Below are positions 4,173-60,157 of a DNA stretch of 64,000 nt, one piece after another. Numbering within the stretch: position 1 is the first letter of the stretch; each line of letters begins with the position of its first letter. Source of the DNA: Lunularia cruciata (taxonomy: Eukaryota > Streptophyta > Marchantiopsida > Lunulariales > Lunulariaceae); the NCBI GenBank assembly GCA_948567375.1, contig OX419755.1:57919945-57983944 (forward strand), read 5' to 3'. The notes beneath the pieces were generated by a model, which saw nothing but the letters and a program-made list of their open reading frames with translations, made no database searches and was not told where the DNA came from. Both the position numbers and the translations under genes were made by a program.

Positions 4173-4183
4173 AAGGAGGGAGG
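4171..4183 (+). other. Polypurine tract of element A
   Basis: A 13-base all-purine run (AAAAGGAGGGAGG) overlaps the pol stop codon and lies two bases before the TG that opens the 3' LTR. This is the expected place for the plus-strand primer of an LTR retrotransposon. Element B has the matching tract, reverse-complemented, just right of 47,417. Confidence 0.85.
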
Positions 4184-4185
4184 TC

Positions 4186-34000: not shown

Positions 34001-36063
34001 GAGAGAACAATACATTTTGATCAGGTTCAGAACCATGAAATTGAGCATTAAGAGCTGTATTCGCATAAAAACGAAAAGAAAATCCCGACTGAGAAAAAGA
34101 GAACATTTGGCATTCAATGACAGATCTAACGATTGAAACGCCCCCTTAGATCGAAAATCCTCCCTCTCAAGTCTTTTCCTTGCAAGCTTCTGCACGGTTT
34201 AGACATTATCTGCTGAAAGCGAAGCAAGGGTTGCGGATATTACTCTGTCGTAATCAGGATTCTTCACCCAGTGAGGAATTTCTGGCAGTAAGGCACGAAG
34301 TGTTTTCGAATCCAGGTCAGCCAAGGGCCTTATAACCGGATCCTGCACAGGACAATGTGAGAAGTACGTAAATGAAGCGATAGCTTCGCGAATATCGCAA
34401 GTGAAGTAATTTATCGGCTTACTGTCATTTCATGAGTTGCCAACGGTCAGTAAAGAAAAGGGAGGCCACAAAATTTTCGGAGGAAGGGAAGCAACTTCAT
34501 TCTCGAAAAAAATTAAGACACTAAGTTCAACTTACTCCCTGCTTAATTAGTTGACATAGAAATCTGACTGCATGAGTAGGTGATATATGGGTAATGTGAG
34601 CAGAAGCCGTTTGCGAACGTGGGACCTAAACTGCATGAGTAGATTAGTTACATGGATAATGGGAACAGATGATATAGTGATTGCTAATTAGTGTTACCAA
34701 GGTACAACTAGGCCCAGATGGAATGGCAAGAGACTCGGACCACAAGAAGGCATAAAGATTCTATCCCGTCAACGGTCCTGGTGTGGAATGCGAAGTCTTG
34801 GTTGAAATAAGCGGTACTATATAACAATACATTGATCGAGGACTGTAGTGTCTGAGGTTAAGGTGGGGTAAATGTTTTCAGCCTCATCCGCCTCCGCCTC
34901 CGCATATCCACGTGCATGTTCAACAAAGTTGAATTCCAGTGGTTGCAGTGGCATGAGAAGGACGTCGTCGTCGTTACAGCTAGTGGAGTAAGTTCGCTAT
35001 AAGTTCACCCTATTTGCAATGCTCATGACATCAGAATGGGAAAGAGTGCGAAAAGAAAAGACATGTAGGTAAAACACAAGGTCAGCATGAAATCGGTCAT
35101 GTAGAGGCCTGAGTAGAACGAAACGGGGACATCACCATCAAGCAGTATATAAAGAAACTGGGACAAGAGACTCTAGGCGTTAACCATCAAGCAGCCTACA
35201 CTTATGGAAGGTTAAGTGAATGGCTGGACATGAAAACCAACCCTACAGTTATCAGAAAAGAAATTTCCCAGAGTAATGTTCCACTAAAATGACACGAGTA
35301 TACACGTCAAACACGGCCTCTTAGGCCGGAAAACTACAACCATTAGACAAACATATGACTCATCAATTCGAGCTTGATTTCCTTCGTGATTTCCCTCGAG
35401 AAAGATACGATTGCGACTTTTGACATCTGGGAGCCATAGTCAATGAAGGTCTGGCTTATCTAACACACATGCGACCGTGTAAGATATAGCAAACAGTAGG
35501 AAGCTCTAGACAGAACTTTCCGAGATTCTAAATGAATGAGGAAGGCATCGTGACATATCTTATGGAACAAAATTTGAATCGTTGACTAATAAGTTCTGTG
35601 CAAGATAGTAACACTATACGTGACGATGAACCATGCCACACGTAATTCTTAGATCCTTCTAACACATCCAAATGTCTGCTTGACTGATCAAACCAAGCTC
35701 AAATGGAAGCATGCATGCGTAGGACTTGAGGGAGCGGTGAAGCTCTGACAATAGCATAGCACATTTAGGTGATCACATCCTACGTGCGATCAATGAGAAA
35801 CTTACGAGTGCTGGACACAAAAAATAGTACTTTCAACAGCTTTAAACTGCCACCCGGGTCCTGCTTTGGAGATATAAAGCCTGCAATCAGCTTCACTTGT
35901 GTTTGCTAGAAAAACTGTTAACAAATCAAAAAAGAAAAGAGGAGCATAGTACCTTCACATCATTAGGCTGCGTGTAGATGAAAAGAAAGTAGCCAACAAT
36001 CAGACCGATGCCGATACCCCATCCAAAACCAACCAACCCGAGCACTGTGCTCATTATCCCCAT
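31020..36063 (-). CDS. SYT: Plant synaptotagmin / extended-synaptotagmin-like protein, 12 exons, 552 aa
   Basis: Plant SYTs tether the ER to the plasma membrane, bind phospholipids and act in membrane integrity and trafficking. Exons (minus strand, in order): 36063-35953, 34342-34244, 33998-33948, 33774-33651, 33561-33443, 33237-33136, 32965-32891, 32751-32675, 32556-32310, 32062-31709, 31454-31326, 31190-31020; every phase closes, giving 1,659 nt. Residues about 6-30 are a Gly-rich membrane anchor followed by PNDVK. An SMP lipid-transfer domain spans about 70-250 (PLADLDS, EIPHWVKNPD, LPPTFVG, FPCFSKI). C2A begins near 260 (VKVVSAKGLKKKDM, SDPYV, VYDWEK). An acidic linker ends APEGTPAGGG. 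C2B begins near 419 (AEDVEGKHHTNPYV, where the usual loop-1 Asp is Asn). The end SKNGKIQVELQW is typical of the family. Intron 1 is 1,610 bp, the others short. Confidence 0.95.
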
Positions 36064-36720
36064 CTTGCTTCAATAAACTGTCCTGTCTGAAAGACCTGAC
36101 CATAAATCCCGGTCCTTAAATCTACTATCCTCCAAGACTCCTCGAAAATCCTCTTAGATCTGCATCTCTGTCTCCTTCTTTGTCCACACAAAACAAAAGC
36201 CCTAAGTCCGACAACCAGAAACACAAAAGTATCGTATCTAGAACCTCACCCCTGCTGCTTACTCATTTCTCACATAATTGCAGTAACAAAACACTCGTGG
36301 GTACTACCATTAGCATTCATACGACCTCGCATCCAGACTCACTTCTGCTGAAGTTGTTCACTTGTCCCCCAAATTTAGCGTAAAACAGCTCGATAATTCA
36401 CTTCCCGATCGATTGAAGTTTCATTCCAGCACGTGCAATTGATTAACAAAAGCTTCGATGCTCAACGTTCCCTCAATGCTCGACGTTTCCACAGATCTCA
36501 GCAGCCCAATCCTTCGATTCTCTCCTCGCTCGCCCGCATCTCTTAAAAGTATCATTCATTCTTCCCTTCTTCCTTTCTCATCGCGATCGTCCTCCTTCCT
36601 CTCGTCCCTCCCTCTCTCTCTCTCTCTCTCTCGCTTGCTGGCGCTCTCAAGGAACTTCCACAGTGAACTTACCATTTCACCATCGTAGTTCCATGTGCCA
36701 GTCGCCTTCTGAGGTGGCCT
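36064..36720 (-). promoter_or_regulatory. SYT 5' leader/promoter with GA (CT on plus) repeat
   Basis: Upstream of the SYT start is a pyrimidine-rich plus strand with (CT)11 at about 36,610-36,632, which on the gene strand is a GA repeat, common in plant 5' UTRs and promoters. A short repeat GATGCTCAACGTTCCCT / AATGCTCGACGTTTCC lies at about 36,457-36,490. The 76-codon plus-strand frame across it is low-complexity Ser/Leu and is not taken as a gene. Confidence 0.4.
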
Positions 36721-37184
36721 TGCCCCATTTGCCCCCCTGATTAACGCCACTGGCAGTAGCCGGTTCGATGTCACAGGGTGTTTAAAAAGGTGTTTCCGAC
36801 CCAAGAAGCAAGGTTATATTCATTGGATATTTGTGTTACTCGCTGGTTCTTTGCAACTGTCCGGTCGATGTGAAAGTTCTGTCAAGAAGGAGTAAAACAT
36901 GTTTCCTATGTTCCATACGCGTTGGCGACTTACCGAGATAATCTTTGGTATCGATGGAAACAGATAACTCGAAGCTGTTACGAGATCATTTGATCTGGTG
37001 GCTACCAAAGCACGCTTTCTAGCAGTCTAATCTCTCGGTTCATTTTTTCTTTTACTGGTGCACTCTTTGAGCGGGTCCGTGCTTTGAGATAGTCACTGTA
37101 CTAGCAACACGCAGAATCGGAGATCGTCTTCGGTACAAGAACCTTACCCATTCGGCTGCCTGCGTCATGTAGTCATGTAGAAAG

Positions 37185-37545
37185 CCTTGATCGGCGGGCT
37201 AGACACCTGGACGAAGTGCGAATGCCCTACGTGCCTCGCCAGGTGTGCAAGGCGAGCTAAGTTGCGTACACATGTCGAATCATCTCCCGTCTCTATTTCA
37301 GGTGCAAGGATCCGGCGACTTTCATCGACCAACCCGTCCAGGTCCGTTTCTATCTTTCCGCCGGAGACACTGTGGACACCGCAAAGTACTCTTTTGGCAG
37401 CACATAGGATTTTGTGTCCTATGTGGGCAGGGCCATACAAGAAGAGAAGGAAAAGGAATATTATGAGAAGCTTCGTGAGACGCACGTCGACAATCTGGGC
37501 CTTACTCATGCTCCTCGATCCGATTTCATTGAATACCACCTTTAG
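37185..37545 (+). pseudogene. Two-exon coding scrap of unknown family, with a premature stop
   Basis: A frame ending GLDTWTKCECPTCLA stops at 37,242 before a GT, and a TTTCAG acceptor at 37,301 opens a second frame in matching phase. Joined, they read CLARCKDPATFIDQPVQVRF, then an Asp/Thr-rich stretch, a TAG at 37,405, then a Glu/Lys-rich helix and HAPRSDFIEYHL before a TAG at 37,543. The inferred intron is 59 bp. The frame continuity across the stop and its amphipathic helix look protein-derived, but I do not recognise the family. It sits at the right edge of the gene island, beside the retrotransposon field. Confidence 0.35.
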
Positions 37546-38047
37546 GTTTACTGGAAGTCCAGAAGACCCACAAAGTAAATTCATTCTTTAACATCTAAAA
37601 GAATAAAGTTTCATTTTTCAAAATCTCAATGTCCAACTGGCTGAAACTGCTGTCACTGCCTACTCAAAGGTTGAAAGGGAAAGTAGCAGAGCACAGTTAT
37701 ATTTTGGGCATTTTACAATGCACCTAGTCTCGCAAACCATACTCATGTCGCCAAAATAAACCATCTTACTTTACATACGTTATTACCATGAGAAGGAATG
37801 CTGTGAACACGAGAAACAATTTGGAAAGCGTTTTGAGAAATTTGTTATTTTCTCATAGAACAAGAGCCGCTCACAACAACCAGGACCAAAATTATGTTTC
37901 CTGGTTGTAAAATACAACAATAGCCGGAGGTACTACCGTCAAAAAAAATTATAAAAAGTAGTTCATAGGTGTTTTGTTATTTGTTAGCTTGCTATAATTT
38001 ATATCAATCTCAGAAATAGACCATTTTGACTAAAAAAAATTCATCAA

Positions 38048-38340
38048 TACAATGGACATTTAACATGTACATTCACCCTTAGAAACTGATGAGCCATTCC
38101 GCGCATGCCTTTGCCAAACATGTTAAGCCGTTCAATTTGAATACCAACCAACTACCATGAGAATATAATCAAAGGAAAGGATTATTATTCATGTCCAATG
38201 ATACTTAACAAGTATATTTAACCTGTAGGAACTGTTGAGCTAATACATACATGCCGTTGCCAGAAAAACTTAAAACCCATCAACTACAATATGAACCAAT
38301 CAACCACCGTCATGTGATGATCAAGAAAAAGTGAAGTTAT
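38048..38340 (+). repeat. Two diverged tandem copies of a roughly 140-bp unit
   Basis: Two blocks share AACTG-TGAGC, CATGCC-TTGCCA and TTAA-CC in the same order and spacing (first about 38,048-38,180, second about 38,190-38,340). Identity is moderate. No coding signal. Confidence 0.5.
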
Positions 38341-38749
38341 TTATTTTGAGTGTATATTATAATACAAAGCACAGAAAAAAAATGTAAGTCTTCCCCTTGC
38401 TAGCCTACTCATCGAATCTATCGTTTGCACCTACACTAACACGCTCCTCCTCTACCTGCCCATCTAGAACATAAAGTTCCTCAAGAACATTACCTTCCAC
38501 CAAGGGATCAGCTTGAAGATGCCCTACCTCTCCAACCCACAAATGGTACGTAGACCATCTCCACCATAATAGTCAAAATACTTGACATCCTTGCTATACG
38601 AGCTTCCTTTGGTTGTCTCTTTCACATGTCACAACAAGGTCTTTAGCAAGTTCTCACTAGATACAAAATGCAACACCGATAAAGTAGCAAAGATCTTTCT
38701 GCACCGCAACACAATATCTACCAAGTGCTAGAGCACATATGGTGTCATC

Positions 38750-39410
38750 CCCAATCTAGAACTATGAATCGGCCTCTCTGAATGAACCTCTAATAGCTGC
38801 TATTAAGATAATGCACAATGAACCAAGAAAAAACTAAACTCCGAAATGCATCCTCCAAGTAGGGAATCCAAGCACTCTAAGACATTGTTCACTAAAAAAT
38901 TCAACAAGAAAATATAGTTGGAAATGAAAGGACTATGAATATTTATTTATCTCTTGTTTATATACTTGTGAAATCCTACACTCAAAAAGTACTAATTATC
39001 AGAATTACTAAAATCCATAGGCAAAAGGTCATCTAGAGTCAAAGTTTAAGAGAATATCCAAACCCATGGGAATAATCTCCATAAGCATGTGCTCTTATCT
39101 TCACCCAACAATTAAGGATTCTTCATATAAGCTGTCTTTGGATTGGAGGAAAATCCGTACAAGAAGACTTGTGGATCTAAAAGCTTTCAACTCCTTCTTC
39201 AAAGTGAAATATTTAGAAACAATAGAAATTCAAAATATTAACCTTTCAAATCAATTTTGCATAGTACCTCTATCTTGGTTGTGATAAACTCTAGCTAATC
39301 ATATCTAATATAGAATTTTGGTTAAATTCTACAGAAACCATTTCTTTCAACTACCTATAATGCCAAACTAGACCATAAAGCATACATGCACTCATAAGTA
39401 CTATAATATA
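38750..39410 (-). repeat. Diverged LTR of the Athila/Tat-like family C, probably solo
   Basis: The order of blocks follows the LTR at 59,467-60,157: GCCTCTCTGAATGAACC, then TTCACTAAAAAATTCAACAAG, GGAAATGAAAGG, TTTATATACTTGTGAAAT, CATAAGCATGTGCTCTTA and GCATACATGCACTCATAA. Substitutions and small indels are frequent, so it is older than the copies at 52.6 and 59.5 kb. No matching internal region was found on either side. Confidence 0.65.
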
Positions 39411-40083
39411 GAAGTACATCACCAAATCAATGGGTTTGAAAAGGATACAATTTACTCATCAATGATCTTCTAAAAAACATTTTAATAGTTTGTTAGCTTG
39501 ATGATTAGTTCTTACTCCAAAAGTTGATGGTGAATATCTCTCATTTGTTTCTTTGTGATACATGAACAGTCTGTCTTCCTGAAGTTTGACTTACACCACA
39601 TGCCACCAACACTATTCACATCAAAGTCCCTAAAAGTTGCAAGGACCTCCCCCCATATTCAAAGCTATGAAAGAACTTTAAAAGATCTAGCCAATATTTT
39701 GAAGAATTCTTCTCTAAGAAATTTAGGAGTATCTTGCAGGTATTCATGCTAAAAATACACAATGGTTATTTTTTCTTGCAGTTATTCAAGTAATATCCAT
39801 AATGTAAATGTTAATAGCAAGTGTGATGCACTTCTTCTTCACTTTGGACATGTCGTGAACATTGCCATTGACTCCAAGTCAATTATTGTACATGTTTTTC
39901 ATTAGAAGTATTGCCTTGCTTATAGTTAGAGTCTATTTTGGAACGGGTAGCCTTCAAGTATCTACCCTTTTCCTTTGTATCAAAAACAATCCTTGCCTTC
40001 CCAATATAGTAAAGGAACTTCATAGATAATATTTGCACCAGTGATGTCTTAGGGTTGCTTAAGTGCTTCTTTTTACACAATAT
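39411..40083. other. AT-rich, nothing recognised
   Basis: Short frames only. No LTR, RNA or protein signature found. Confidence 0.35.
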
Positions 40084-40565
40084 TTTTCCCAATAGTCTTC
40101 ATATTGCAATGGAATGTGTGCTTGTTCTTTGTATCTTTTTGCAAAAAATTTAAAGAAATTTTTTTATTGAACAAGCTCATCTTACTAAGAAAAAATAGAA
40201 GTTTTGCAAATAAAAAGGAGATGAGATAAAAAATTAAAATGTACCAACATTTTTGGCAGATTATTTGTAGAATTCTATTGGATTTTGGTTGGAAGCAAAT
40301 CTGCAAAATTGTGTACTCCTTGCCTAACAAACTTCTCAATAGTCTTCATATCCCAAATGTAATATTTGCTTGTTCTTGGTACCTCTTTCAAAAAAAATTA
40401 GAGAAATTTTATTATTAAACAAGCTCACCTTACTAAGAGAATTAAATTTTTTGAAAATAAGAAAGTGTAAGAGATAGATAATTGAAACTTACCAAGATTG
40501 TCGGAAATTATGCTTAAAACTCTATCACCTTTTGGTTGGAAAAAAATCTGCCCAAATTTAAAAGC
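40084..40565 (-). repeat. Tandem duplication, about 245-bp unit, containing exon-like blocks
   Basis: Copy 1 (about 40,084-40,328) and copy 2 (about 40,329-40,565) share AATAGTCTTCATAT, CTTGTTCTT, AGCTCA-CTTACTAAGA and TTTTGGTTGGAA. On the minus strand each copy contains a block preceded by a T-rich tract and GCAG and followed by a GT donor (GTAAGT in copy 2, GTACAT in copy 1). This looks like a duplicated exon in a decayed minus-strand gene, but the translated blocks are short and not recognisable. Confidence 0.5.
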
Positions 40566-41600
40566 CATTCTTCAAGATTTGAAATCTTGTTGCTTGACAA
40601 TAGTAACTTGGTTAGAGTTGTACATTATAGCACTATTGTATTGTACAACAATCCCATCAATGCTCAACTAACCACCCTCCATGTGTCAAAGAATGATGAG
40701 TTCATACTATCATTGACCAGCCACAAGTGCTTCCACCAAGGGAGCTACATATCTTGCTCCTTTGATATGAGTAGTATCACAACCTTAGGTCCTTGTACTT
40801 ACTTTTGCCACTCATACAAATTCTTTTCTTACATATAAGACATGTATTCTTGTTCATTCCACAACTCATCTATGAAAAATGAAAGTTGCTAATAATTATC
40901 ATGAGAAATAACCATATCCTATGTGTGAGCTTTAGCTGATACATTTCTTCTCTCTAGTAGTAGCCTCTTCTTCAACTGATTATCCACAACATAACACTTC
41001 TCCTTGAATTCATTCTAGAAGTACTTAATCTTCTAAGCAATTATATACTCAATTCAAAATTTTCATATATGTTGCCATCATCTGCAAAAACATTTACTTT
41101 GACCTTTAGACAAGCTCACATAAACCCAACAAAATAAACATAAGATGTAGATAAGATTGAGTCTAGAGCAACTTCCAACTAAAGCAATGTTGTGGTTGCC
41201 ACCTATAATGTGGCACTTCTAAGTGTTGAGGTGGAATGTTCACTTATCCTACTTTGTCAAGCAACTATCTTGGTCACAATGAGAATTAAATTTGAAAAAT
41301 TTTAAGTATAAATTCATCTTCCTCATTCTATTGATGAGTTTGCTCATGAAAGTGTTGCTCACAAATAAATCTGAAATGATCCTTAGTTCTCACCTTAGGA
41401 TTATTGATCTCCCAAAGATTTATGTTCAAAAATCTTAACCAGAGCCTAAAACTTATTGATAGCAATCTTTTACAACTTGATCTTCTTGTTGCAAAGAGGA
41501 TACAAAGGAATATCAGTGGAAATTTTAGAATATGAAAAATTAAACAAAAAGACCAAATAACTTAGACAAATAAGGGTAAAGAATAGAAAAAAATGAAATA
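40566..41600 (-). other. AT-rich, possible decayed minus-strand coding traces
   Basis: On the minus strand about 41,080-40,830, after a TTTTGCAG acceptor-like site, a frame rich in Lys, Glu and Arg (EKCYVVDNQLKKRLL) runs to a GT but contains stops. No family recognised. Confidence 0.25.
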
Positions 41601-41650
41601 TTTACATTGAGCTATGGCACAAGAAGTTGAACATGATGCAAGGTATGACA

Positions 41651-41709
41651 CCTCACCTCTTTTCAACATACGCCTTTTTGAAAAAGGTGTATGTTGGAAA
41701 GAGGTGAGG
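41651..41709. repeat. Near-perfect 59-bp palindrome (29-bp arms)
   Basis: Bases 41,651-41,679 pair with 41,681-41,709 at 27 of 29 positions; the two mismatches would be G-U pairs in RNA. The loop is a single base, too small for a normal microRNA precursor loop. It lies in the downstream part of the HSE-containing LTR. It could be a DNA cruciform/foldback or an RNA hairpin in the element transcript. Confidence 0.9.
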
Positions 41710-41957
41710 CTCAAATTCCTTAGTCTAGTTAGAAGTGTGAAGAAATAGCTGGTTGGAAAAGAAGAAGGAAGGTTTATAGTTGTTTGTCTTTGATCCAAGA
41801 GAAATTGCACCATGTAGGAGGAAGATGACCCAAGACATATCCAACATGGGAAGTGTAAAAGACCAAAACCGAGGAGAGAAATAGGAGAATGGAAACTCAC
41901 ATTGGGACACTTGAATGAGAGAAAACTCCGAATGCCTAGCATGAGCTTTGGCTTTGG

Positions 41958-41965
41958 TATTTATA
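41958..41965 (-). promoter_or_regulatory. TATA box of LTR F
   Basis: TATAAATA on the minus strand, downstream of the heat-shock-element array and about 310 bp from the LTR start at 42,275. Transcription would start near 41,925-41,935 and run leftwards. Confidence 0.55.
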
Positions 41966-41986
41966 GGTAGCATACAAGGCCCTTGA

Positions 41987-42205
41987 GAAGCTTCTCAAGA
42001 AGCTTCCTCAAGAAGCTTTCTTAGAGTGCAAGCCAAGTTAACTAGGAAGCTTCTCAAGAAGCTTCATTCTAGAAGCCGCCTACTTGGCGTGCAAGCTAAG
42101 CTAGTTGGAAGCTTCTAGAAGCTTCTAGAAGCTACTTACTTAAGGTGCAAGCTAAGCTAACCGGGAAGCTTCCCAAGAAGCTTCCTAGATACTTCTGGAA
42201 TATTC
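41987..42205 (-). promoter_or_regulatory. Array of heat-shock elements in the LTR promoter
   Basis: Heat-shock elements are alternating nGAAn/nTTCn units every 5 bp. Five consecutive perfect units occupy 42,108-42,130 (GAA, TTC, GAA, TTC, GAA), three occupy 42,193-42,205, and GAANNTTC or TTCNNGAA pairs occur at 41,987-41,994, about 42,052, 42,067-42,074 and about 42,167-42,186. Three more units lie in the second LTR fragment (42,351-42,363). All lie 20-240 bp upstream of the LTR TATA box on the minus strand. The motif fit is seen directly; heat induction is inferred. Confidence 0.6.
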
Positions 42206-42433
42206 TAGGCTAATTTGTCTTATGTGTTACTTTGTGAGCCCGACTGACTTCATCGCTAAACTCCATATTGTTACATATTCCCCCGCCGCCAATTGGTGAC
42301 GTCCTCATCACCAACTAGCCGGGAAGCTTCCCAAGAAGCTTCCTAGATACTTCTAGAATATTCTAGGCTAATTTGTCTTATGTGCTACTTCGTGAGCTCG
42401 ACTGACTTTGTCGCTAAACTCTATATTGTTACA

Positions 42434-43326
42434 TGAAGGCTAGAAGTTGTGAAGTAGGGAGGAGGACCTGCATCAAGGACCAATCAAGGACCTTCAACAA
42501 AAAAGGCTCAAAGTTGTACAAGGCCTTGCAGAAGGAGACCTTCATCCCAAAATCTATTTGGCATGAAACAACCTTTAGCCCAAAAACCATCCAACCTAAA
42601 TCACCCTTAGCATGAAAGTCAATCAGTTTGAAAAGATCTCAAGTACTTAAATGTGACACCAATAGATCAAGAACCACAAGTAATGACCATCTGTTTGTAT
42701 CATAATGTTCACATGTACAAGATGCAATTGCTTGCACCAAGCACACCTATAAAACATTTGTGATGGTTCAGCCATTAACTTAAATAATCAAGGAAGGCTG
42801 ATTACTTTTCACTTTTTCTTTGCAAAATTAGACAAGTGTGAATTGTAGCCACGATAGAATTCTCTTCACATTTGGCAAGAAGTTGTAGAATTGTGAGTAG
42901 GGAGTGAATCACTATATGAAAGGAGAATTAAGAGAGATGAAAGGGAGAGAAGTAGCAATAGCTCCTTGAGCACCTAAGTGCAAAAGGAAGTGCTTGATTT
43001 CATAATCAAGGCTCCAGATTGACAAAGTCTGCACTTCATTGTAGGTAGAAGTTTCTTTGCAACAAGAAGGTGGAATTCTTGTTATGGAATTTGCAGTTGA
43101 GTGATCATGCAATATTGCATGAGATATATGTGAGAATAAGGATCCAAGGACAAAGAACTTGAGAGGAAATCTATCTTGCATAGACAAAGGAACATTGGTA
43201 GAGAGTTTTGGGGCTAGAAAATTCTCTCCTAAATGCCATGACATTAGATTCTACCTAGACTTGCCCAAACTTGAGCTTGGAAGCACAATTAAGGGCAACT
43301 TTCAAGGATGACAAGACCAACAATGG
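42434..43326. other. Unannotated AT-rich stretch
   Basis: No family recognised. A 60-codon plus frame at 42,433-42,615 is Lys/Thr-rich without motifs. The right part may belong to the same decayed coding unit as 43,923-44,616, since the solo LTR splits the sequence at the AATGG target site. Confidence 0.3.
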
Positions 43327-43922
43327 TGTAATACAAGTAGCTAGACACATTAACTAGAGGTGAAAATTGGCTTGGTAACATCTAGAAGGATGTTTTGTAC
43401 AATGGGCTACAAACATCAAATAGAGGTGTCACCAAAAGAGTACTTCTACTAATAGGGCAGATGCCAAAAATAGCCTAAAAATTTTAGAGCCAATTTTGGA
43501 GGCCTAAACGGATGAATTAGGCCTTGAAAATAGAAAATATCCTACCCCTAAAGGAGAAAGACTTGCCTTCTCCTCTTATGATTTGTCTCATTGAGAGCTT
43601 TCAAAAAATACCTCATCCACATGATTTTGAGCTCTCTATAGTAAGATTCCCTAAATATTCCTTTTAATCAAACCCATTTGACCAACTAGATAGGACAAGG
43701 ATTGACATGTCACTCATCAAAGCAACTAGTCCAAGGATGGACCTCAATTACAGGTCACCAATCCATGTATTTGATCCAAGGGTGGAGCTTCTTTTGAGGG
43801 ATCCTCTTTGCTATATAATAAAGAGAAGGTGCTCCTTTAGGGCATCGGAGTATTGAGTGTGAAACTTGTATTTTCTCTCTTGTATCTCTCTTGGAGAGTT
43901 CTCTTGTCCTTAGAGTATTACA
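43327..43922 (+). repeat. Solo LTR of family A with perfect target-site duplication
   Basis: The 596-bp LTR begins TGTAATAC and ends GTATTACA, as in element A, and carries the same TATATAATAAA core. It is flanked on both sides by AATGG (43,322-43,326 and 43,923-43,927), the 5-bp duplication expected of Ty3/gypsy integration. With no internal region this is the product of LTR-LTR recombination. Its U3 holds a single copy of the block that is duplicated in element A. Confidence 0.95.
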
Positions 43923-44049
43923 AATGGTTAGTATGTTCCTAAATACAAGGATCTTGCATGAAGGGTCTTAGCCAAATCTGTGATGAAGTTCTTCAAGTCC
44001 AAACAAACAACTTATCTAAACAAATAGCAAAGCAATCTTCTTTGAGCAC

Positions 44050-44523
44050 TTGTACAAAGGAAGACTTATGAATTGGGCAGCCATGTTTAGGTGGCAAGCA
44101 CAAAAATTGGTGTGGGATATAGAAAAGGAGGGAGGATTTACCTTGGTATCCTATTTCATCATGCATTTCTACTTGGGGATGGGTTTTTTAACCTCCGTTG
44201 AGAAGAAGTATCCCAATCACTACTTCTCCGAGGGGTATTTTGAGGACCCTCAAGAAAAGTATATGATGGAAAAGAAGTATGCATTGGTGGATGTAGAGTT
44301 TGTCCCAATGGAAGAAGCTCACAATACTTGGGCTTTGAGAAGAAGAGATAGATGGATGGAGTTGGTAGAAGAACCTCACGTGAGGGAGATGAAGAAGCCA
44401 ACAACCCTTTCCAAGCCAAAAGTAAAGGCCAAGAAGACCCAAGTGGTGGAAGATTTTGAGGAAGAGGAGGAGGTTGGAAAACCAAAGGCAATACCCATTG
44501 CCAATGAGCAATCCTTCACTTGA
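44050..44523 (+). CDS. Unknown 157-codon open frame interrupted by element B
   Basis: An open frame (first codon TTG; in-frame ATG a few codons on) encodes an aromatic-rich N-terminal part (LMNWAAMFRWQAQKLVWDIE, YFIMHFYLGMGF), a middle with YFSEGYFEDPQEKY, and a C-terminal Lys/Pro plus Glu-rich tail (KVKAKK, then FEEEEE), ending TGA. Beyond the stop the same frame stays readable to 44,616, where the element B LTR begins. Upstream, 43,928-44,045 also looks coding but in shifted frames. It is therefore probably the remains of a larger gene broken by the solo LTR and element B. I do not recognise the family; retroelement gag-like or host-derived are both possible. Confidence 0.4.
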   Translation: MYKGRLMNWAAMFRWQAQKLVWDIEKEGGFTLVSYFIMHFYLGMGFLTSVEKKYPNHYFSEGYFEDPQEKYMMEKKYALVDVEFVPMEEAHNTWALRRRDRWMELVEEPHVREMKKPTTLSKPKVKAKKTQVVEDFEEEEEVGKPKAIPIANEQSFT

Positions 44524-44616
44524 ATTGCAATCTTGTCCAACAAGGAGGTGAAAGAGGACAGAGGTGGAGAAGTACAATCTATCCCAACTACAACACCTCC
44601 AAGAGCAAGGGAAGAC

Positions 44617-47417
44617 TGTAATGTTCCAAGGACATGATAACCCCCAAGAGAAAACCCAAAAGAAGAAACACAAGGCTTACATTCAAAACTCCGATTCTCC
44701 AAAGGACCACCTTGTCTTTATTATATAACAAAGAGAATTCCCTTAAAGGGAGCTCCATCCTTGGATTAGATACATCGATTGGTGACATGTTAGCAAGCTC
44801 CACCCTTATATTAGTTTCATGCATGTGTGACATGTTGGTTCAGGTCCTATCTGGTTGGTCAAACAAGCTTTGATTGGAGAGAATCTTTAGAGAATCTTCC
44901 TATAGGAATCTTAGAATCACATGGGTGAGGTACGGTTGTCGTATTTTGCTTTTCTCTCTCTTGGAACACATAGGGTGCCTAGCTATGGAGTCTATATATC
45001 AAAAGTTATAGATAAACCTGTCTCTACTATTTTGAATGCATATAGAACCCGACCAGTAGAACCTTTCATTCTAGGTTTTGGTATTTTTGCTATTGGGTAG
45101 AGTAGTAATAGGCAACCTAATTTGTCATCATAACATGCACTCCTGGTCTATTGGTCACCAAGGAGAGATAAAAAACACTCTTAGAAGAAAAGAACCTAAG
45201 TGCAATGTGTGCATACCAATCCAAACCAACTGGGCATACAAAGAAGCACACAAGCACGGAGAGGATCCAATCACAAGAATTCAGCAACAACTCTCTATTT
45301 TTTTGTCAAAATTGAGCTTCAAAGCCCTCTTGCTCTATCAACAAGCTAATTTCAACCTATATTTTGAGCTTGCTCTAGTATGTACTTCAGCCTTCAACCA
45401 ATTTGTACTCCAAGAGGAGTTATCTTATGTCATGTTGACACGGAAAATCTTATGTAACTCAGATGGGCATAACTTTCTCTTTGTGACTAGGATTTAAGTG
45501 TTCTAGGATTCAATGGAAAGCTTGTAAGATAAGCTTTCCAATGATATGAAATAAAACATAATCTGATCACTACAATTCTCCTAAAAATCTCTCAAACTTG
45601 TCTTTTTTGTAATTTTCACCCTAATTTTGAAATCCCTAATTTAAAGTTTTCTCTTGGTTCTGGGTTACTTTCCCTAGATTTCTTGATCAGAGGTGCACTT
45701 AATCATCAAAACACTATGAAAACCTAAAATATTCAATCATAGACACACAAAATAGGAGAATGGACACTCAATCATGATAGAAGATAGAAATGCTTTATGA
45801 GCTTATGATAGTATTTTTAGTAGAGTTTGTTGCATAAGCTCTCACTCTTCATAGATCCAAAGTCAACCAAACTTTTCAAAATATTTATTTGTGCCTTTTT
45901 ATAGACCTCTATAAAGTTTAGTACCCTAATCCAACACCAAACCCTAGGTATGGATCAATTCTTGAGCTGGGCTAACTTCTAAGCTCTACATACCCAAGTA
46001 TACTTGAAACAAAACCCTAAATTCTCCTTTTGAGAAATTTACATGAAACCTTCTCATGAAGATGCAAAACATAACCACCACTAACAACATAGAAATTTTT
46101 CATAAGGTGATTTACACCACAACTTGGGGAGTGACCAGAACTCCAAACCTAATCATCTACTCTTCTCCAACACCTTACATCCCAAAAGCACCAACTTCAA
46201 TCAACTAGATCTGATTTGAGATTGAGCCAAAACTAGAATTTCTAACACTCAACACTATAATCACTTTCTCTTCTCTCCAACCTACAGATAGATAATGTAA
46301 ATGTCTCATGAAGCTCTCCAAATTATCTATTTTGTACTCATAGATATCAATTCTACCCCCTTGATTCAATTGATCATATCTTCCACAAAATTAGCTCAAA
46401 TCACTTTGTTTTAGTCTCTAAATTATAGCTTGTCAACTCTTCTCTCCAACCATAGCCTTTTCTCCTTTTATTCTCTCCCCAAACTCCTTTGATCTTCCAA
46501 AAACTCCAGACTTTCACTCTTGGAACCCAATCTCTTACAATTTTATCACTTACCCTCTTCACTATTTGACAAGAGGACCCCACAACACCACCTTGAAGCT
46601 CATGAGAGAAATTGAGCCATTCTCAATCTACAAGATCACATAGATTTTCAAGTCCTAGACTTGCTTGTAAGAAAGCATTGGAAGGATAATAGAATCTGGT
46701 TTCCATCATCGACTCCATGAATACCGTCTCAAAACATACCACCATCCAATCCTGTAAGCCATCATGGTGTAGAATCTAAAGCCTAATGAGAAAAGGATTC
46801 AAGAGTGATAGATCAAGAACATGAGACATCTCCTACTCAAATTTTTCCTCCCACACTCTAATGCTCGCTCTCTGTTACAACTCTCACTCCCAACGTCCTC
46901 CTCCAACGCAAGACTCCTCAAACTAAAACACACCCTTTTACCCAACTCTTCACCATCTATATACATAAGAGTCCTCAAAGAAGACATGATCATAATCCAT
47001 GTGGCCAATCATATCCATATACATAGATTTCTCACATGGAAATAGCTCAACCGTGGGATCCGTCATACAACCTACGCCATCCTTACAAAGATAACCACAC
47101 CAATTTACTTTTTTATGGACTATGCAAACCACAACACAACACCATTAGAAAGTCTTGTTGAGAAAAATAGGGGGAGGAAAGGCCAACTATATTTTCCTTG
47201 AGAGAAGGGAATTTACACATTTTTAGGTCTTATTTATCTATTCAGCCCTCCAACATTGGCTCTAAAGATTTTAGGCTATTTTTGGTTCTTGCTCTATTAG
47301 TAATACTCTTTTGGTGATACCTCTATCTAATCTACTTATTCTATCATATATAACATCCTTCCATATGTTACTAAGCCAATTTTCACCTCTATAATATATC
47401 TAGCAATTGGTATTACA
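44617..47417 (-). repeat. 3' LTR of element B, split by an insertion
   Basis: The LTR starts TGTAATACC at 47,417 and ends at 44,617 on the minus strand. Its outer parts, 47,417-47,141 and 44,933-44,617, align with successive parts of LTR A. Between GGTAC (44,929-44,933) and ACCATT (47,141) about 2.2 kb of foreign sequence intervenes. Single-copy U3 block. Confidence 0.8.
44934..47140. mobile_element. 2.2-kb unclassified insertion within LTR B
   Basis: The insert is defined by interruption of the LTR homology. Its ends read GGTTGTCG at the left and ACAACACAAC at the right, giving only a 5-bp inverted match (GTTGT/ACAAC). A clean target duplication is not visible: GGTAC on the left faces AACAC on the right. 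Inside are AT-rich sequences and no recognisable transposase, RT or gag frame. It could be a non-autonomous DNA element, a decayed LTR or a Helitron-like piece. Confidence 0.5.
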
Positions 47418-50400
47418 AATCACCTCCCTTTTAAGATGCAATGTCCTCATTGCAAAGTTGTTGCTCAAAAACTTTCACTAACTCCGGTGCATGGGTCAAG
47501 TTGGCTATTGGCTCTCATGTTATCTCATACAATGGGTACCCTTTCCATTGTAAAAGATATTCTACATGCGGGTAGCAAGTACCACAACTGCAATTTTGGA
47601 GAATGCATTTGACTTCATATTCCTTTGTGCCATCAATGAGTGTTGGACAAGGTTGAATGTCTTGTATGGAAGGAAATTAGGACAGTCAGATGGCATATCT
47701 ACATAGTAAGGAAATATGGAATATTTGATGGATCTTCATGTGCCGGCAGTAGCTTATGGTGATAGGCCATTACATCAATTTGACAAAGAATAGGAAAAGG
47801 CCCAATAAAATGAAGGTTGAGCTTACGAGGGCCAACAAACATGCGGTTGGTTGTTGATAGCTATACTTGATCTCCAATATTGAACTCCATGTGCTAGCAA
47901 TGTGCATCTGCATATTGCTTCCATTAAGATTTTCAACTTGTGCTTGGCATCCTCTACACTTTATTGGATTCTAGAAACAAAATTGTTGACAACTTCAACC
48001 TTGGTAACCATTGGATGGATCTTCATCAAGCTCAAAGTTGTGAAAGGATGCTCTTTATACATGAAGAAGAATAGTATGACTTATGTGGATGCATTCACTA
48101 AATTTTTGTAAGAAAATTCCACCAATGCAAGTAAGGTGTCCCACCTCTCTTCCTCATCTAAGGTGAAGCCTCGGAGCATGTCTTCAATAGTGCAATTAGC
48201 CCACCCTATTTATCCATTGGTCTATGGATGGTAAGTCATGGGCACGGTCAATTTGGTTTTGAAGGAACCAAAGAGTGTTCTCCAAAACAAACTAGTGATT
48301 TGAGTGCCTCTATCGATGATGAGCACTCGAGATAGGCCATGGTGGGAAAAGACTACATTTAAGTACAATTGAGCTAGCAAATCACATCCATGGTGGTAAG
48401 ATACACATGAATCATTTTGTTGAGTCGGTGACAAAGATTATGATGAAGTCAAACCTTGAGATGGTTTTGGGCAATTCACAAACCAAATCCATGCTTACTT
48501 GTTCTCAACATTGTGTAAGAGTAGGAAGGAGTTGAAGGTCTTATGAGAGCTTGATTAAAAGCTTTATTTTGCTGATAAATTAGGTCACTCCAAACATATT
48601 CCACAACATTGTTGCTCATCTTGTACCAATAGTAATGGCATTTGACCGCATCCAAGGTCTTGTCCATTCCAACATGACCTACAATGGAAGAATCATGACA
48701 TTCTACTAAGATGGTGGTTCTTATGTTCATGAAATCTGAGATCCATAACCTACTATCACAAAAGGTGAGTCCTTAGGTGTTGGTGACACCTTTGGATGAT
48801 TGATTTCCTACAATTTATGGATATATTTTCATATTAGCAAAAATCCTTAGCCAAAATTCAGAGTTCATCTTGCCCTCTACTACAGATTGTTTGCCATCGG
48901 CATTTGTGTGAATGCATCTACAAGTTTCTTCTTGCCTTTCACAATGGTTCAACATGATGATATGTGATCATCATGTTGAACCATTGTCTCTACTTTGCCC
49001 ACCAAACCTACCAATGAGATAGATCTTTCTATGTCTCAAGGTAGAGTGGAGGTTTGTGGTTTGTCTCCACTACAAATGCCTTCTCACCAAGATAGTGCTT
49101 TCAATGTTTGGTTGCAAGGACAATGACCAAATCTCCTCATTTAATGGTGTGATAGTTACATTCTATCGGTAATAACTTTTGAGAGAAATATACAACTGAG
49201 TGCCATCCATCATGCCACTCTTGTTGTAAGACTGCTCTTATTGCCACACCTGATGCATCTATAGCCAACTTGATTGGAAGTTTTGGGTCATACTATTTCA
49301 AGGTTGGTGCATGTAGTTATGCATCTTTTAATTCTTGAAGGACCAAATCTTGTGTTGTTCTCAATATCCACTCCTTCCCATTGCCAAATAGTGTTGTTAG
49401 AGGTTGTACAACCTTAGAGAAGTCCTTGATAAATCAATGATAGAACCCCGTCAATCCTAAGAAGCTCTTAAATTGAGTTTGATCTCCTAGAGCACTCCAT
49501 TTTTGAATGACTTCTATTTTATCTACTAACACTTGGATACCTTTTGCACTTACTCTATGCCCCAAGTGGACTACTTCAGACTTGCCAAACTCACATTTTG
49601 AGATTTAGGTATACAATTGATTTTGTCTTAGAATTTGGAGGACTTCTTGTAGATATTGCTTGTATACCAACATTTTCCTATTTACACTCAGATGTTATCT
49701 AGGAAGATGATAATAAAATTATTCAAGTATGGACAAAATACTTCATTCATCAGACTCATGAAAGTGGTTGGTGCATTGGTGAGGCCAAATGGCATCACCA
49801 AGTACTCAAAGTTGCCATACCTTGTTCAAAAGCAATTTTGTGTATGCTATCCTCTACAATCTAGATTTGGTTGTAATTGCTTCATAGATCAAGTTTGGTG
49901 AAGTCTTTTGCCTAATTGAGTTGATCAAACAAGTCATCTGTATGGGATAAATGGTATTTTTTCTTCACTATTTTTTGATTTAGGTCTTGATAGTCAATGG
50001 ACATGTGCATTGTATTGTCCTTCTTCTTCACAAACAAGATAAGAGTCTCATATGGTGATACAATGTGTTAGATAAACCCTTTTTATAGTATATCCTCAAT
50101 TTGAGCCTTACACTCTTCCAACTCCTGAAGTGATAGACAATATGGGGCTTTACAAGGAGGTGTCTTCCTCGGAAATATCTCAATTTTATGATTTACTCTC
50201 CTTTTTGGTAGTAATCCTAAGGGTAGATCATATGAGAAGAAATCTTGAAACTCATTAACCACATCTTTCAATTTCTCAAGAATTTATCTATTGAGTTGTG
50301 CACTTTAGACTTCTCTTATTAGACTAATGAAACATCTATCTTTCTTATAGATAGATGTTGTCCCCATGACATAGAGAAGCAATTCTTGCATGTGTGATCT

Positions 50401-50560
50401 TTCTTTAACCCCAATGATCTTCTATTGGTGAGTTCTCACTAATTTCTTCCTCCAATTGACCATAGGGTTGTAATGCTCCATCCACTACATGCCTAAGATT
50501 ACATCGTAACAAGCTAACTATATCATTCATCACTCAATTGCTCCCTAATACTCTCCTACA
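47418..50560 (-). pseudogene. pol of element B, multiply broken
   Basis: Minus-strand pieces in order: protease with VLIDLGTT near 50,640 (DLG where DSG is usual); RT N-terminal part near 50,270-50,080 (FQDFFSYDLP, ELEECKAQ); RNase H near 49,200-49,000; integrase zinc-binding part near 48,730-48,560 (HDSSIVGHVG, then SDLIYQQNK, both Cys lost); DDE core near 48,430-48,220 ([18 protein letters not shown]). Frames change repeatedly. The region closest to the LTR aligns with the chromodomain end of element A. Non-functional. Confidence 0.8.
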
Positions 50561-51700
50561 AAGAGTATTATCTTTTTAGGTAACAACTCAATCCTCTTTG
50601 TCAGCCCATTAGGTAACTCTACCTCTTCATTTTCATTCTTCTCTAGATCCTTCAATTTTATTGCAACAAAGCAAGACAAGAAATTCTTTGTTGTTCCAAG
50701 GTCTATCAATACTCTCACCTGATTGCTTCTATGATTCCATTCATGACAATCAATCATGAGTTTATCTTCCTTGATCTTTGCACACTCTTCCTCTTCCTTT
50801 CTTTGCTTTTTTGCTTCTCCAATGAGCCAATAAGGCCATAAGGTAAATTTATTTGTCATCTTTGTTTTCAGTGTGATTTTTGCATCCTCCTCTTTAATTT
50901 TTCTTTCCATGTTGTTCAAAGATTGCCTATATGGAAGTCGAGGATCTCTAGGAAGATGAGCATGAAAAGTGATGGCCATGTACCCAACTTGGCCTCAATT
51001 GTAACAAAAATGTTGTTATGCTCAAGTCCCTTCTCCATATGGGACTCCATCTATTATTTCATCCCCTTGTCCCCATTCTCCTTGGAGCTGTCATGTTGCT
51101 TGGTCTCAAAATCAAATGTTGCATATTTCCATAGGAACTGGTCTACCAAAGTGTTTTGTTTTAGCAAAATAATGTTGATTCCAAGTGCCTTAGCTATTCT
51201 CTGAGTGCAAGCAATGGCTTCAAAAATAGCAGAAGGAGTTTGTACCATTACTTCTTGGCTCTTTTAACCCTTGTTTGAAATTGTCCAAAGCTTTTGCTAG
51301 ACTCATGTTTGTTATTACAACTTTTAGATTGAGAAATACCTCCACATACTCTTATACATAGTTCTTTTGCTTCAACTCACATAGTCAGGTTTAAGCCATC
51401 TACACAAGATCCACAAATTAGAAATTCTTCAATAGCTCTTCTTGCATTGCAATCCAAGTGACCTCTCTTTCTTTTGCCAACATTGATTATTCCCAAGCAT
51501 CATACCATGTGAGGGCTTTATCAATGGAGTACCCACATGCAAATACATGTGGAATGATTGGTGATCTCCGTTGTGAAAAATTGGATGTATTGATTCATTC
51601 TTGAAATCTAGTTCTCCACTAATCCCATGTAACATTGCTCCTTGTAAGGCTTAATATTGCATGTCTTCTTCATCCATGATAACAATGTGGCTTCATTGTT
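50561..51700 (-). pseudogene. gag of element B, broken
   Basis: Aligns with gag of element A: YLHVGTPLIKPSHG near 51,540, AIFEAIACTQRIAKALG near 51,230-51,180, a former zinc-knuckle region near 51,000, then LPYRQSLNNMERKI running in one frame into protease at 50,979-50,545. That continuous frame suggests the ancestral element encoded a single Gag-Pol protein. Confidence 0.7.
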
Positions 51701-52650: not shown

Positions 52651-53201
52651 TGTTGCAAATGAAAGGTAGTATTAAATGAAAGGGTGATGAGTACCTCTTT
52701 GACCCTAGTTTATATACTTGTAATAAGAAATAGTTATGCACCAAAGTTATTAATTATTGGAGTAACTCAAGTTACTAGGCTAAAAGTCAAATAAAGTCAA
52801 AATGCTAAAGGACTATCTATACTCATAGGAATATTCTCCTAAGCATGTGGTCTTACCTTCACCCAACCACTAAGTCAAGAATTCCTTCACATTGGCTTTC
52901 CTTGGACTATAGAAGAATCCAAAACAAAAAAGACTTGTAGGTCCACAAGTTCTCAACTCTTTCTTCAAAGCCAAACACTTATGAATAATACCAAGTCAAT
53001 ACACTAGAATCCAAAATAGTGATGCTCATCTTTTGCACTTCTTCTAAAGTAAGGTCCCCTTTATCTTAATTATGACTGAATTTAGCTAATCATTACCAAT
53101 GTGGAACTATCTTTTATCTCTATACAAATAATATCTCTCAAGGACTTATAATATTAAACTAAATATCTCAATAGCACATACATGCACAAATAGATGTTAT
53201 A
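52651..53201 (-). repeat. 3' LTR of element C, truncated
   Basis: 551 bp matching 59,631-60,157 closely. The roughly 165 bp that form the end of the intact LTR (59,467-59,630) are missing, replaced by the LTR B stump. The inner end reads TGTTATA where the other copy reads TGTTACA. Confidence 0.85.
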
Positions 53202-56160
53202 TCTACCACTGGATTAAGATTTTACTTTGTCCTCAAAGTGAAGGTCTCTCTAACCTCTATGATACATATTCAACTTATCATGGTTAATCCTATCAAAGTG
53301 TGTTCCTCCCAAGTCCTTGAGATCATAAGTGTAATTGCCTCACATGTTCTCCACTATGAAAGGTCCAAAGTACTTAGGCAAAAACTTCTTTGGCACTTTC
53401 TTGAATCAAACGGAATCAAACAACACTACCCAATTACTTTCTTTGAAAGGCTCCACATTTTTCTTGCATTGTCTCTTGTCATAGCTCTCCTTTTTTTCCT
53501 TTGAGCTTGCTCTACTCAAACCATAGCAACTGCTCTTGTCTCTTCCAATTCCATGAGTTGATCCTTCCTTGACTTCTCTGCATCACTTCCTTGTGTTTTC
53601 TTCAATCTCCTATGAATGCTTTGGAAGGTAGGAAGATCAAAGTGAATAGGTAAGGTAAACTCAATATCTTATACCAATTGAAATGGAGAATATATGGTAG
53701 AAGTCTTCATGGTTGTCCTATATTCCCACAAAACTGCATGAATCCTCTTGTCCCAATGATGTTTAGCCCCTCCATTTTTGCATCTTTGGCCAATATCATG
53801 CACAAGGTTTGATTGGTTCTCTTTGCCAAACCATGGAATTGGGCTTATAGGATGTAATTACTTTATATGTGATAGAGAAATATTGTAGCATGGCTGTAGT
53901 AATGCTTCCTATAAACTCTCCACCTCTATTAGAAACCAACTCCAAAGGGCACCTAAACCTAATGATAATGCATTCATAAAGAAATCTCCCAACTTCATTT
54001 TCATTCTTGTCACTGAATGGTCTAGCCTCAACCACATGGTAAAATAATCAATAACTACCACAATGTACCAATTGTTCTATGGGATTATCTTGAGAGGACC
54101 TACAAAATCAATTCTTCACTTCTCAAAAAGTCCTAGCAATGGAATTGTTCTAAGTGGTAGAGTGGAAGTAAACTTTCTAGCAAAAGCTTTACAAACATGA
54201 AAATTTTTGCAATAATCAAGATAATCCTTGAAAATTCTCCTCCAATGGTAATCTGCATCCAGAATCTTGAAAGAAATCACCTTTCCTACAAAGTATCCTC
54301 CATACACTAAACCTTCATGAAACTCCTTTATGAGTAAGATAGACTCTTCCTTACCCACTACTCTTCAAAGTAGACCATCTACTCCTTGGTGAAAAAGAAT
54401 ATCCTCCACTATTTTGTAAGGCCTAGATCTTCAAGGGCTTTCTTCTCCCTAGCATACATCCGTTCTAGATAGTAACCTCTTGTAACAAAGTCCACAAGCT
54501 CCTTGTACTCCATTGGAACCTTTTGAGTGATTGGTATTGTCATGAGCTCCTCATTTTGGAAGGAATCATCCACTTGCTCATCTTCATCATTTGCAAATTT
54601 CTTCCTTGGCCTAACCTCAATGGTGTAGTCATACTCGAACAAGAGTATCATCCACCTTGTTAGCCTCCCTTCCACATGAGGCTTGATGAAGATGTACTTC
54701 AAAGCCTTGTGATCCATGACAATGGTGGCTTTTCCTCCAATCAAGTAGTGTTTAAACTTCTTTAGACCAAAGATCATTGCCAACCCTTCTCTCTCCATGA
54801 TAGAGTAGTTTTTTGCTAAAACCATTTGCTCACTAGCATAAACTATTAGATGATCATACCCATCTTGGTCTAATTGACTAAGAGTGCATCCTATATCTAC
54901 ATTGGAAACATTAGTGTAGAGGATGAAATGCTTACTCCAATCAAGTTTAGCAAGAATTGGAGCTACAACCAGGGATTGCTTAAGCTCTTCAATAGCTTTG
55001 AAAGCCTCCTTGTCCTCCAAAATCACCATGTATTCTACACCCTTCTTCATGTAGATGGTCAATATATAAGCCTTGTTTGAAAATGAGAAGATGAACCTCT
55101 CATAATATCTAACCATCCCCAAGAATTGGCAAAAGTTTTTCAAGCTTCAAGGGAATAGAAGGTCTGAGATTTTCCTCACCTTCTCAAGTTCAATTGCTAT
55201 TCCATCCTTGGAAATGATGTGCCCTAAAAGTAGACCTTCTTCACAACAAAAAATGGACTTCTCTAGGTTGAATGATGTATTTTCTTCATCTAAGCATTGC
55301 AAGACCTTGATCAGGTGCTCAAAGTGCTCCTCCTTGCTTCCATAGACACAAAAGTCATCAATGAAATCTTTCATAAATTTCCCAATGAAAGGTTCAAACA
55401 CCGTGTTCATGAATTGTTGGAATGTGATTGGAGCATTGCAAAGCCCAAAAAGGCATGACCTTGAAAGCATAAGTCCTCCAAGATGTGGTGAATGTGGTGA
55501 GCTATTGATGCTTTAGTGCAATCTTGACCCCCTATAACTATCTCCAAAGTTGTACCTCTCATGACCCACAACCTCCTCCAAGATCTCATCAATGAATGGA
55601 AAAGGGTAATGGTCCTTCTTAGTAATAGCATTGAGCTTCTTGTAATCCATATATACCCAAAGCTTGCCATTCCTTTTCTTTGCAATCAGAATTGGAGACA
55701 CTTATTTTGAATTCTTCACCTCAAAGATAAATACAACTTCTTTGACCTTATCAATCTCCCCATTCACAACCAAAAATATTGGTGGATTAATGTGATGTTG
55801 CTTTTGGCAGACTGGTCTTGCATGTGACTCCATCTCAATCTTGTGCTCCTCCAAGGTGACTTCTTTTAGATCCTTGTTACTAAAAGCAAACACATGGATG
55901 AACTTGCAAAAAATCTCCTCAAATCTTACCTTCTCTTCCTTGGTAACATTTGGACAATACTTGAGGGTAGATAACCTCCTCTCTATCTCCTTAAGTGTCA
56001 ATGGTGAATTATCTAAGTCCTTCAAAACCTCTTGTTTAGGTGAAAAATCCATAGCACAGAAAGGATACACATTTGAATTAGATTTAGATTCATCCTCTTT
56101 TGTGGAGGTCTCCTTCTCCATACTTGTGTCCACACCTGAAGCTCCTTCTTCTAAATCTTA
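53202..56160 (-). pseudogene. pol of element C, multiply broken
   Basis: Minus-strand order: RT start near 55,700-55,560 (SPILIAKKRNGKLWVYMDYKKLN), RT catalytic part near 55,470-55,150 (FIDDFCVYG), RNase H about 55,143-54,600 in a 244-codon open piece (MEREGLAMIFGLKKFKHYL; DHKAL), integrase zinc finger near 54,358-54,116 (YCKNFHVC kept, second His now Tyr in GGYF), core near 54,035-53,800 (VSNRGGEF where the catalytic Asp is Asn), C-terminal part near 53,420-53,330 (KKFLPKYFGPF). Both altered residues fit single C-to-T or G-to-A changes. Non-functional. Confidence 0.8.
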
Positions 56161-59466: not shown

Positions 59467-60157
59467 TGTGAGCTGGCCTATCTCTCCCTTAGGATGAACC
59501 TCTGATTGCTTTTATGGTAGCGCACCATGCATTAAGAAGGCAAAAAACTCCAAATCCATTGTACTCCTCCAAGGCTAACACTCCAAGATTCAAAACATTG
59601 CTCACTAGAGAACTCAATAAGAGAGACATAGTTGCAAATGAAAGGGTGATGAGTACCTCCACACCCCTAGTTTATATACTTGTGAAATAGTTATGCACCA
59701 AAGTTACTAATTATTATAGTACCTCAAGTCACTAGGCTAAAAGTCAAATAAAGTCTAAATGTTAAAGGAATATCCATACTCATAGGAATATTCTCCTAAG
59801 CATGTGGTCTTACCTTCACCCAACCACTAAGTCAAGGATTCCTTCACATGGACTTTCCTTGGATTGTAGAAGAATCCAAAACAAAAAGGCTTGTGGTTCC
59901 ACAAGTTCTCAACTCTTTCTTCAAAGCCAAACACTTATGAATAATACCAAGTCAATACACTAAAATCCAAAATAGTGATGCTCACCTTTTCCACTTCCAC
60001 TAAAGTAAAGTCTTCACTATTTTAGCTATGACTAACTTTAGCTAATCATGACTGATGTAGAACCATCCTTTATCTCTATACAAATAATATCTCTTAAGTA
60101 CTTATAATTCTAAACTAAATATCTCAATAGCACATACATGCATAAATGGATGTTACA
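59467..60157 (-). repeat. LTR shared by elements C (5') and D (3'), 691 bp
   Basis: It starts TGTAACATCC at 60,157 and ends GCTCACA at 59,467 on the minus strand. On its left is a primer-binding site and the interior of element C. On its right is a polypurine tract (GGGAGTAAA) and the pol end of element D. One LTR therefore serves two elements in head-to-tail order. Confidence 0.8.

Follow-up and report, generated by a model that had tools for sequence, protein, structure and literature searches.

The 64-kb window of Lunularia cruciata DNA analysed here (the whole stretch of 64,000 nucleotides) contains a 406-bp interval, 41,958–42,363, crowded with heat-shock elements (HSEs) made of contiguous nGAAn/nTTCn units, and raises the question of whether this interval marks a retrotransposon that is switched on by heat. 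The five-unit run and the two three-unit runs lie exactly where the initial annotation had placed them (Table 1), and the crowding of pairs that it described amounts to 12 GAANNTTC and 5 TTCNNGAA pairs, mostly within tandem repeats of about 59 bp. The interval holds the sole such cluster in the 64 kb, the whole window having four runs of at least three units, with the fourth at 60,727. Dinucleotide shuffling of the whole window (n=100) gave a mean of 1.31 runs of at least three units and 0.01 of at least five, the latter possibly a single five-unit run in one of the 100 shuffles. When the 406-bp stretch was shuffled 2,000 times in the same manner, three runs occurred in none (mean 0.003), nor did a five-unit run. 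A chance cluster without biological meaning, in whose favour only the shortness of the motif can be cited, is refuted by these shuffles and by the reversed-pattern controls across the genome described below, and we consider it extremely improbable. Since 42,157–42,276 and 42,315–42,434 form a 120-nt direct repeat (93%), the two three-unit runs represent one site in two LTR copies and are not independent. The repeated unit, initially read as a sign that the site had been amplified, is present (CTTCTAGAAG at 42,112 and 42,122), and the duplication is visible in the family alignment.

The array belongs to an LTR on the minus strand, as had been proposed: both ends match the LTR ends of relatives, the terminal TGTAACA directly follows a polypurine tract, and the HSE sites lie upstream of a TATA box (Table 1). 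The LTR itself is larger than first described, comprising a complete 3' LTR plus a 5' stump. The same internal tail precedes the 3' LTR in the seven relatives compared, the first junction bases being different. The candidate retrotransposon has likewise proved to be an LTR element, but the copy in the window is a deletion derivative devoid of coding sequence and primer site, not a working element. We conclude that this spot is a broken remnant of a high-copy Ty3/gypsy chromovirus LTR retrotransposon. Its flanks, TGAAG and GGAAG, are as for a decayed target duplication and constitute a candidate for one. The two LTR parts differ at 8 of 120 bases, all transitions (K about 0.07, calculated by hand), and all eight lie outside the GAA and TTC of the HSE pairs. 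The U3 region is a tandem, palindrome-rich array containing 10 CG and 8 CHG cytosines, both strands counted. An Rfam search of 36,000–48,000 returned no matches, a tRNA search across the window found none, and the minus-strand ORF at 41,565–41,960 matched no Pfam family. Just beyond the LTR end lies a 59-bp inverted repeat (41651–41709, 91.5% complementary), a candidate hairpin or foldback element, and a sequence of roughly 248 bp is directly duplicated at 40086–40551 (77% matches).

Table 1. Features of the HSE-bearing LTR remnant, in window positions.
Feature	Position	Strand	Basis
Candidate target duplication, downstream end, GGAAG	41849..41853		4/5 bases shared with TGAAG
3' LTR, 422 bp, TGTAACA...TTTTACA	41854..42275	-	Ends agree with LTR ends of relatives
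TATA box TATAAATA	41958..41965	-	Same place in most aligned relatives
Tandem repeat of ~59 bp, 3.4 copies, GAAGCTTC palindromes in every unit	41987..42186		
Perfect five-unit HSE	42108..42130		Motif scan; 4-bp gap relative to its clade's four-unit form
Perfect three-unit HSE of the 3' LTR	42193..42205		Motif scan
Internal 3' tail, 39 nt; polypurine tract GGCGGCGGGGGAATA at 42,276–42,290	42276..42314	-	Tail of relatives
5' LTR stump, 119 bp, remainder deleted	42315..42433	-	120-nt direct repeat with 42,157–42,276
Three-unit HSE in the 5' LTR stump, equivalent to the 42193..42205 site	42351..42363		Motif scan, direct repeat
Candidate target duplication, upstream end, TGAAG	42434..42438		4/5 bases shared with GGAAG

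The genome searched comprised 565.8 Mb in 74 contigs, eight large contigs of 60–85 Mb summing to about 558 of 566 Mb. With the window LTR as query, 40 of 6,029 first-look candidates were scored and 41 rows obtained, namely the LTR itself, 39 others at 95–96% and one weak match within the window. Copies sharing the LTR and its array, for which the initial annotation had advised a genome search, are found elsewhere in large number. Twenty stretches of about 10 kb were taken, all from the copies closest to the window LTR, and only near-complete LTR matches were retained from them (399–429 bp). Both ends were set by hand for 13 elements, leaving out the complete-looking inner L013 element and any copy whose 5' LTR was split or missing. 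Twelve of the 13 measured 5,407–5,655 bp and one 6,857 bp, and 11 are flanked by exact 5-bp target duplications. On the 3' side of most 5' LTRs lies TTGGTATCAGAGC, which we take to be an initiator-Met-type primer site.

Pfam analysis of 10 unmended pieces from four relatives (L010, L020, L022 and L027) identified protease (PR), reverse transcriptase (RT), RNase H (RH), zinc-binding and core integrase (INT), SH3 and chromodomain segments, in the order of chromoviruses, with the chromodomain after INT. This PR-RT-RH-INT-chromodomain arrangement places the family among the Ty3/gypsy chromoviruses, in agreement with the gypsy-like character first ascribed to the LTR. Because the window copy has no coding sequence, its own membership rests on the LTR and tail: relatives display TG..CA LTRs, the primer site, the polypurine tract and the 5-bp duplication, of which the remnant retains the polypurine tract, the LTR ends and four of five duplication bases. 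Exact-pattern scans for the LTR start/polypurine tract in viral and bacterial/archaeal genome contigs, and for the HSE in viral contigs, gave no matches, as expected of plant DNA.

The window harbours another chromovirus (735–4,169), to which the RT and INT pieces of the relatives are 50% and 48% identical, so that the HSE-bearing chromovirus constitutes a separate family, presumably Reina-like judging by its size. That other chromovirus is present as two copies in opposite orientation, 77% identical (24–4353 and 47255–51546), the first of which holds a 1,145-aa open frame with PR, RT, RNase H, integrase and chromodomain. Direct repeats of ~830 bp, 89% identical, at 52674–53503 and 59636–60459 flank an RNase H fragment (54,412–55,146), and together they probably represent a further LTR element. 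The open frame at 26364–27326 encodes a family-28 glycosyltransferase N-terminal domain, the solved structures most closely related to it being those of bacterial MurG enzymes, and is possibly a plant MurG-like gene.

When one LTR was kept per element, the longest perfect run in the resulting 64 LTRs was five units in 1, four in 29, three in 27 and two in 7. Upstream of the TATA box, 57 of the 64 LTRs carried at least three adjacent units, the arrangement typical of ONSEN-type promoters (shuffle mean 0.57, maximum 3, n=100), and 30 carried at least four (none in 100 shuffles), while no run exceeded two units in the remaining seven. We regard the array as a real, family-wide feature of the predicted promoter, met here in a dead local copy. 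A young clade, the closest one (34 LTRs of 20 elements), was compared with an older set of 21 LTRs, excluding the LTR of the window copy and the two of the inner L013 element. The longest run was four units in 30, three in 3 and two in 1 of the young LTRs, 28 of which carried two or more runs of at least three units; it was three units in 17, two in 3 and four in 1 of the older ones. Mean pairwise K was 0.037 in the young clade versus 0.114 in the older set, and the four-unit clade forms a tight, short-branched group in the tree. A third set, of 21 LTRs and of greater diversity, had four units in 9, three in 9 and fewer than three in 3.

In the alignment, the older set reads AGCTTCTAGAAGCTTCC; about 16 additional bp precede this in the young clade, which reads TTCTAGAAGGAAGCTTCTAGAAGCTTCC. 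This arrangement indicates that the four-unit site of the young clade arose via duplication of about 16 bp. The second-copy LTR of L018 carries one further repeat beyond the four-unit form. The window copy is 4 bp shorter at that place, and the parts fuse into its five perfect units. We had also considered the five-unit run to be private to the window copy, which proved wrong, other family members having five or six units.

Genome-wide, the perfect four-unit pattern, being self-complementary and thus counted once per site, occurs at 7,083 sites, about one per 80 kb, versus 117 for the reversed pattern. Among the first 20 of these sites, all from one end of contig C1, 18 lie in the LTR family (74–98% over at least 279 bp), one lies in a second repeat and one has a 43-bp match only. 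The five-unit pattern produced 67 + 71 matches versus 7 + 2 for the reversed pattern, a six-unit run scoring on both strands; 20 of these 138 matches were chosen by hand so as to cover different letter variants, and 18 belonged to the family, eight of them with six units, and two to another repeat. The exact 28-mer of the young clade occurs 874 + 870 times and the exact junction of polypurine tract and LTR 729 + 739 times (control 0 in both cases), and among the listed 28-mer rows 13 same-strand pairs are, by eye, 5.19–5.24 kb apart, which is the LTR-to-LTR distance. The second repeat (L085, L086 and L090, copies 82–85% alike) bears a perfect four- to five-unit HSE (GAATTTTCAAGAATGTTCAAG(AA)). 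Its nearby reverse strand reads TTTTGGTGCCGCTGCCGGGG, which looks to us like the tRNA-Asp-type primer site of another LTR element, in which case the HSE would lie in the leader. The five-unit HSE at L089 (C1:359640-359960), which matches the LTR family over 43 bp only, is either a diverged fragment or an independent site. We tentatively propose, as a possibility that falls short of an even chance, that one chromovirus family supplied most of the strong HSEs of this genome, as ~7,000 four-unit sites lengthened stepwise by duplication, and that heat would draw heat-shock factor (HSF) mainly to LTRs. If most strong HSEs do sit in LTRs, they would form a dispersed promoter network, an HSF sink, or both.

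LTR enhancers often grow by slippage and duplication. The U3 of this family may have expanded in that way as palindromic material, with the HSE phase incidental and the promoter either constitutive or governed by another factor. Its material consists of GAAGCTTC palindromes and ~59-bp units in a strong tandem structure, and U3, folded as single-stranded DNA, has a z of -2.85, with 0 of 100 shuffles equally stable. Palindrome pairs whose 4-nt linker sets them out of perfect HSE phase number 35,534 genome-wide (control 214), about five times as many as the 7,083 sites with the in-phase 2-nt linker, and three such pairs (41,987, 42,046 and 42,165) occur in the tandem repeat of the window copy. 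On the other hand, the in-phase site is kept at three units or more across LTRs about 78–98% alike to the window LTR, and also occurs as the quite different sequence GAATATTCNNGAA.

Conservation of the GAA/TTC core bears on the same issue and appears modest across the family. With methylation context matched, pairwise diversity in the young clade was 0.0153 for the core and 0.0300 for the comparison positions (3.1% of resamples equally low); the corresponding values were 0.0805 and 0.0881 for the older set (34%), and 0.0443 and 0.0852 for the pooled set (0.8%). In columns free of CG and CHG, the young clade (p=0.0004) and the pooled set (p=0.02) showed lower variability in the core than in the inner nn, a difference that did not reach significance in the older set (p=0.21). 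Compared with the remainder of U3, the core was not significantly lower in any of the sets (p=0.10, 0.47 and 0.12). All these conservation p-values are optimistic because the rows are related. A comparison ignoring CHG context had given 0.0087 for the core versus 0.0267 for matched positions, an effect that becomes modest once context is controlled. The weak context-matched conservation favours incidental palindrome expansion, and the inner nn of the young clade, more variable than its core, speaks against it. On balance, we judge that origin rather unlikely.

The explanation we favour, and hold to be reasonably likely, is that the locus is the remnant of a Ty3/gypsy chromovirus whose U3 was built around HSEs and which HSF activated in heat. 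What is read directly from sequence comprises the LTR anatomy, the chromovirus domains of relatives and the predicted HSE runs that precede the TATA box, mostly of three or four units within a range of two to six, together with the way these runs grew by local duplication and spread to thousands of places. Since relatives have spread thousands of predicted HSF sites through the genome, the family may switch on in heat, and it is probably heat-responsive where active. Trimers of class-A heat-shock factors would bind the LTR HSEs upon heating and direct transcription to start about 25–30 bp beyond the TATA box (for the window copy, near minus-strand position 41,930), yielding the transcripts of the family; gaining a fourth unit may have favoured the youngest burst. 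We infer this HSF-driven transcription from the analogy with ONSEN, whose LTR site is bound by HSFA2 and whose activation requires HSFA1-class factors (PMC3907296, as far as the available text goes), and from the ranking of adjacent motifs, in which four are strongest, above three-unit sites (PMC5059998, likewise). The window copy would now be a stray heat-responsive promoter or enhancer at most. Counting for heat activation are the 57 of 64 LTRs with at least three units, the 7,083 four-unit sites, the visible duplication and the lower diversity of the young-clade core relative to nn; counting against it are the 35,534 out-of-phase pairs, the weak conservation in the older set, the seven of 64 LTRs with two units or fewer and the broken frames of all 13 elements measured.

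These broken frames also suit a family that was formerly heat-responsive and is now inert, HSF having driven past bursts and silencing and decay having left no responsive copy. All 13 elements measured lack a long open frame, their longest stop-free stretches being 167–457 aa, so that none encodes a full-length pol frame. LTR pairs within elements differ by K of 0.0095–0.057, with no identical pair among those measured, and the CG and CHG cytosines of the window U3 are unlike ONSEN. Nevertheless, the sample is limited to the copies nearest the window LTR, coding capacity is not required for an LTR promoter to respond, and the five-unit site of the window copy contains 0 CG and 0 CHG cytosines. 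We consider a wholly inert family unlikely.

Among known systems of heat activation through HSEs, the closest is ONSEN/COPIA78 of Arabidopsis, where, in the text available, a heat-responsive element (HRE) of four nGAAn motifs is bound by HSFA2 (PMC3907296). As in the Lunularia family, its LTR combines an HSE cluster of four-unit and weaker sites (PMC3907296, PMC5059998). ONSEN differs in being a Ty1/copia element, present in 8 copies in Col-0, whose promoter lacks CG and CHG (PMC3907296), whereas the Lunularia family, known here from sequence, belongs to the Ty3 chromoviruses and has thousands of four-unit sites as well as CG and CHG in U3 (10 and 8 cytosines in the window copy). It may work like ONSEN, yet, not being Ty1/copia, it is no member of the ONSEN family. 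In the Brassicaceae elements TERESTRA/Alesia.FAM.7, ROMANIAT5 and COPIA37, according to the excerpts available, HREs were likewise gained and lengthened within families, with clusters of up to six nGAAn motifs; those are copia elements with a measured heat response, in contrast to the Ty3 family described here. Overall, ONSEN and its relatives, with a defined HSF-bound HSE, appear in these sources as copia elements of low copy number.

Heat-induced Ty3 elements are already known from the portions available of PMC9780303 and PMC8656106. PHRE1 and PHRE2 of moso bamboo, studied under heat, are Ty3/gypsy elements of 4,980 and 5,515 bp (PMC8656106), but their LTRs have been linked to TCP, DOF and GATA factors, and the term HSE is absent from the searched text of that paper. 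No Ty3 chromovirus with multi-unit LTR HSEs is described in the titles and abstract openings of the open-licence papers surveyed, which does not prove absence. The family provides a natural series of HSE lengths, from two to six units, in one promoter background, and this series could serve as an in vivo measure of HSF dosage and cooperativity. Should a heat response be absent, it would caution that textbook HSEs can be inert by the thousand.

The closest parallel in genomic scale is that of the Caenorhabditis Helitrons, where, in the available part of the source, one transposon class holds most genomic HSEs (61.4%, 11,527/18,766; PMC6927752). Those are nematode DNA transposons with measured HSF-1 occupancy, whereas the Lunularia sites are predicted from the sequence of a plant LTR element. 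If heat activation of this family is true, the HSE mechanism would extend to the other LTR superfamily, and the family would represent a plant counterpart of the nematode Helitron case.
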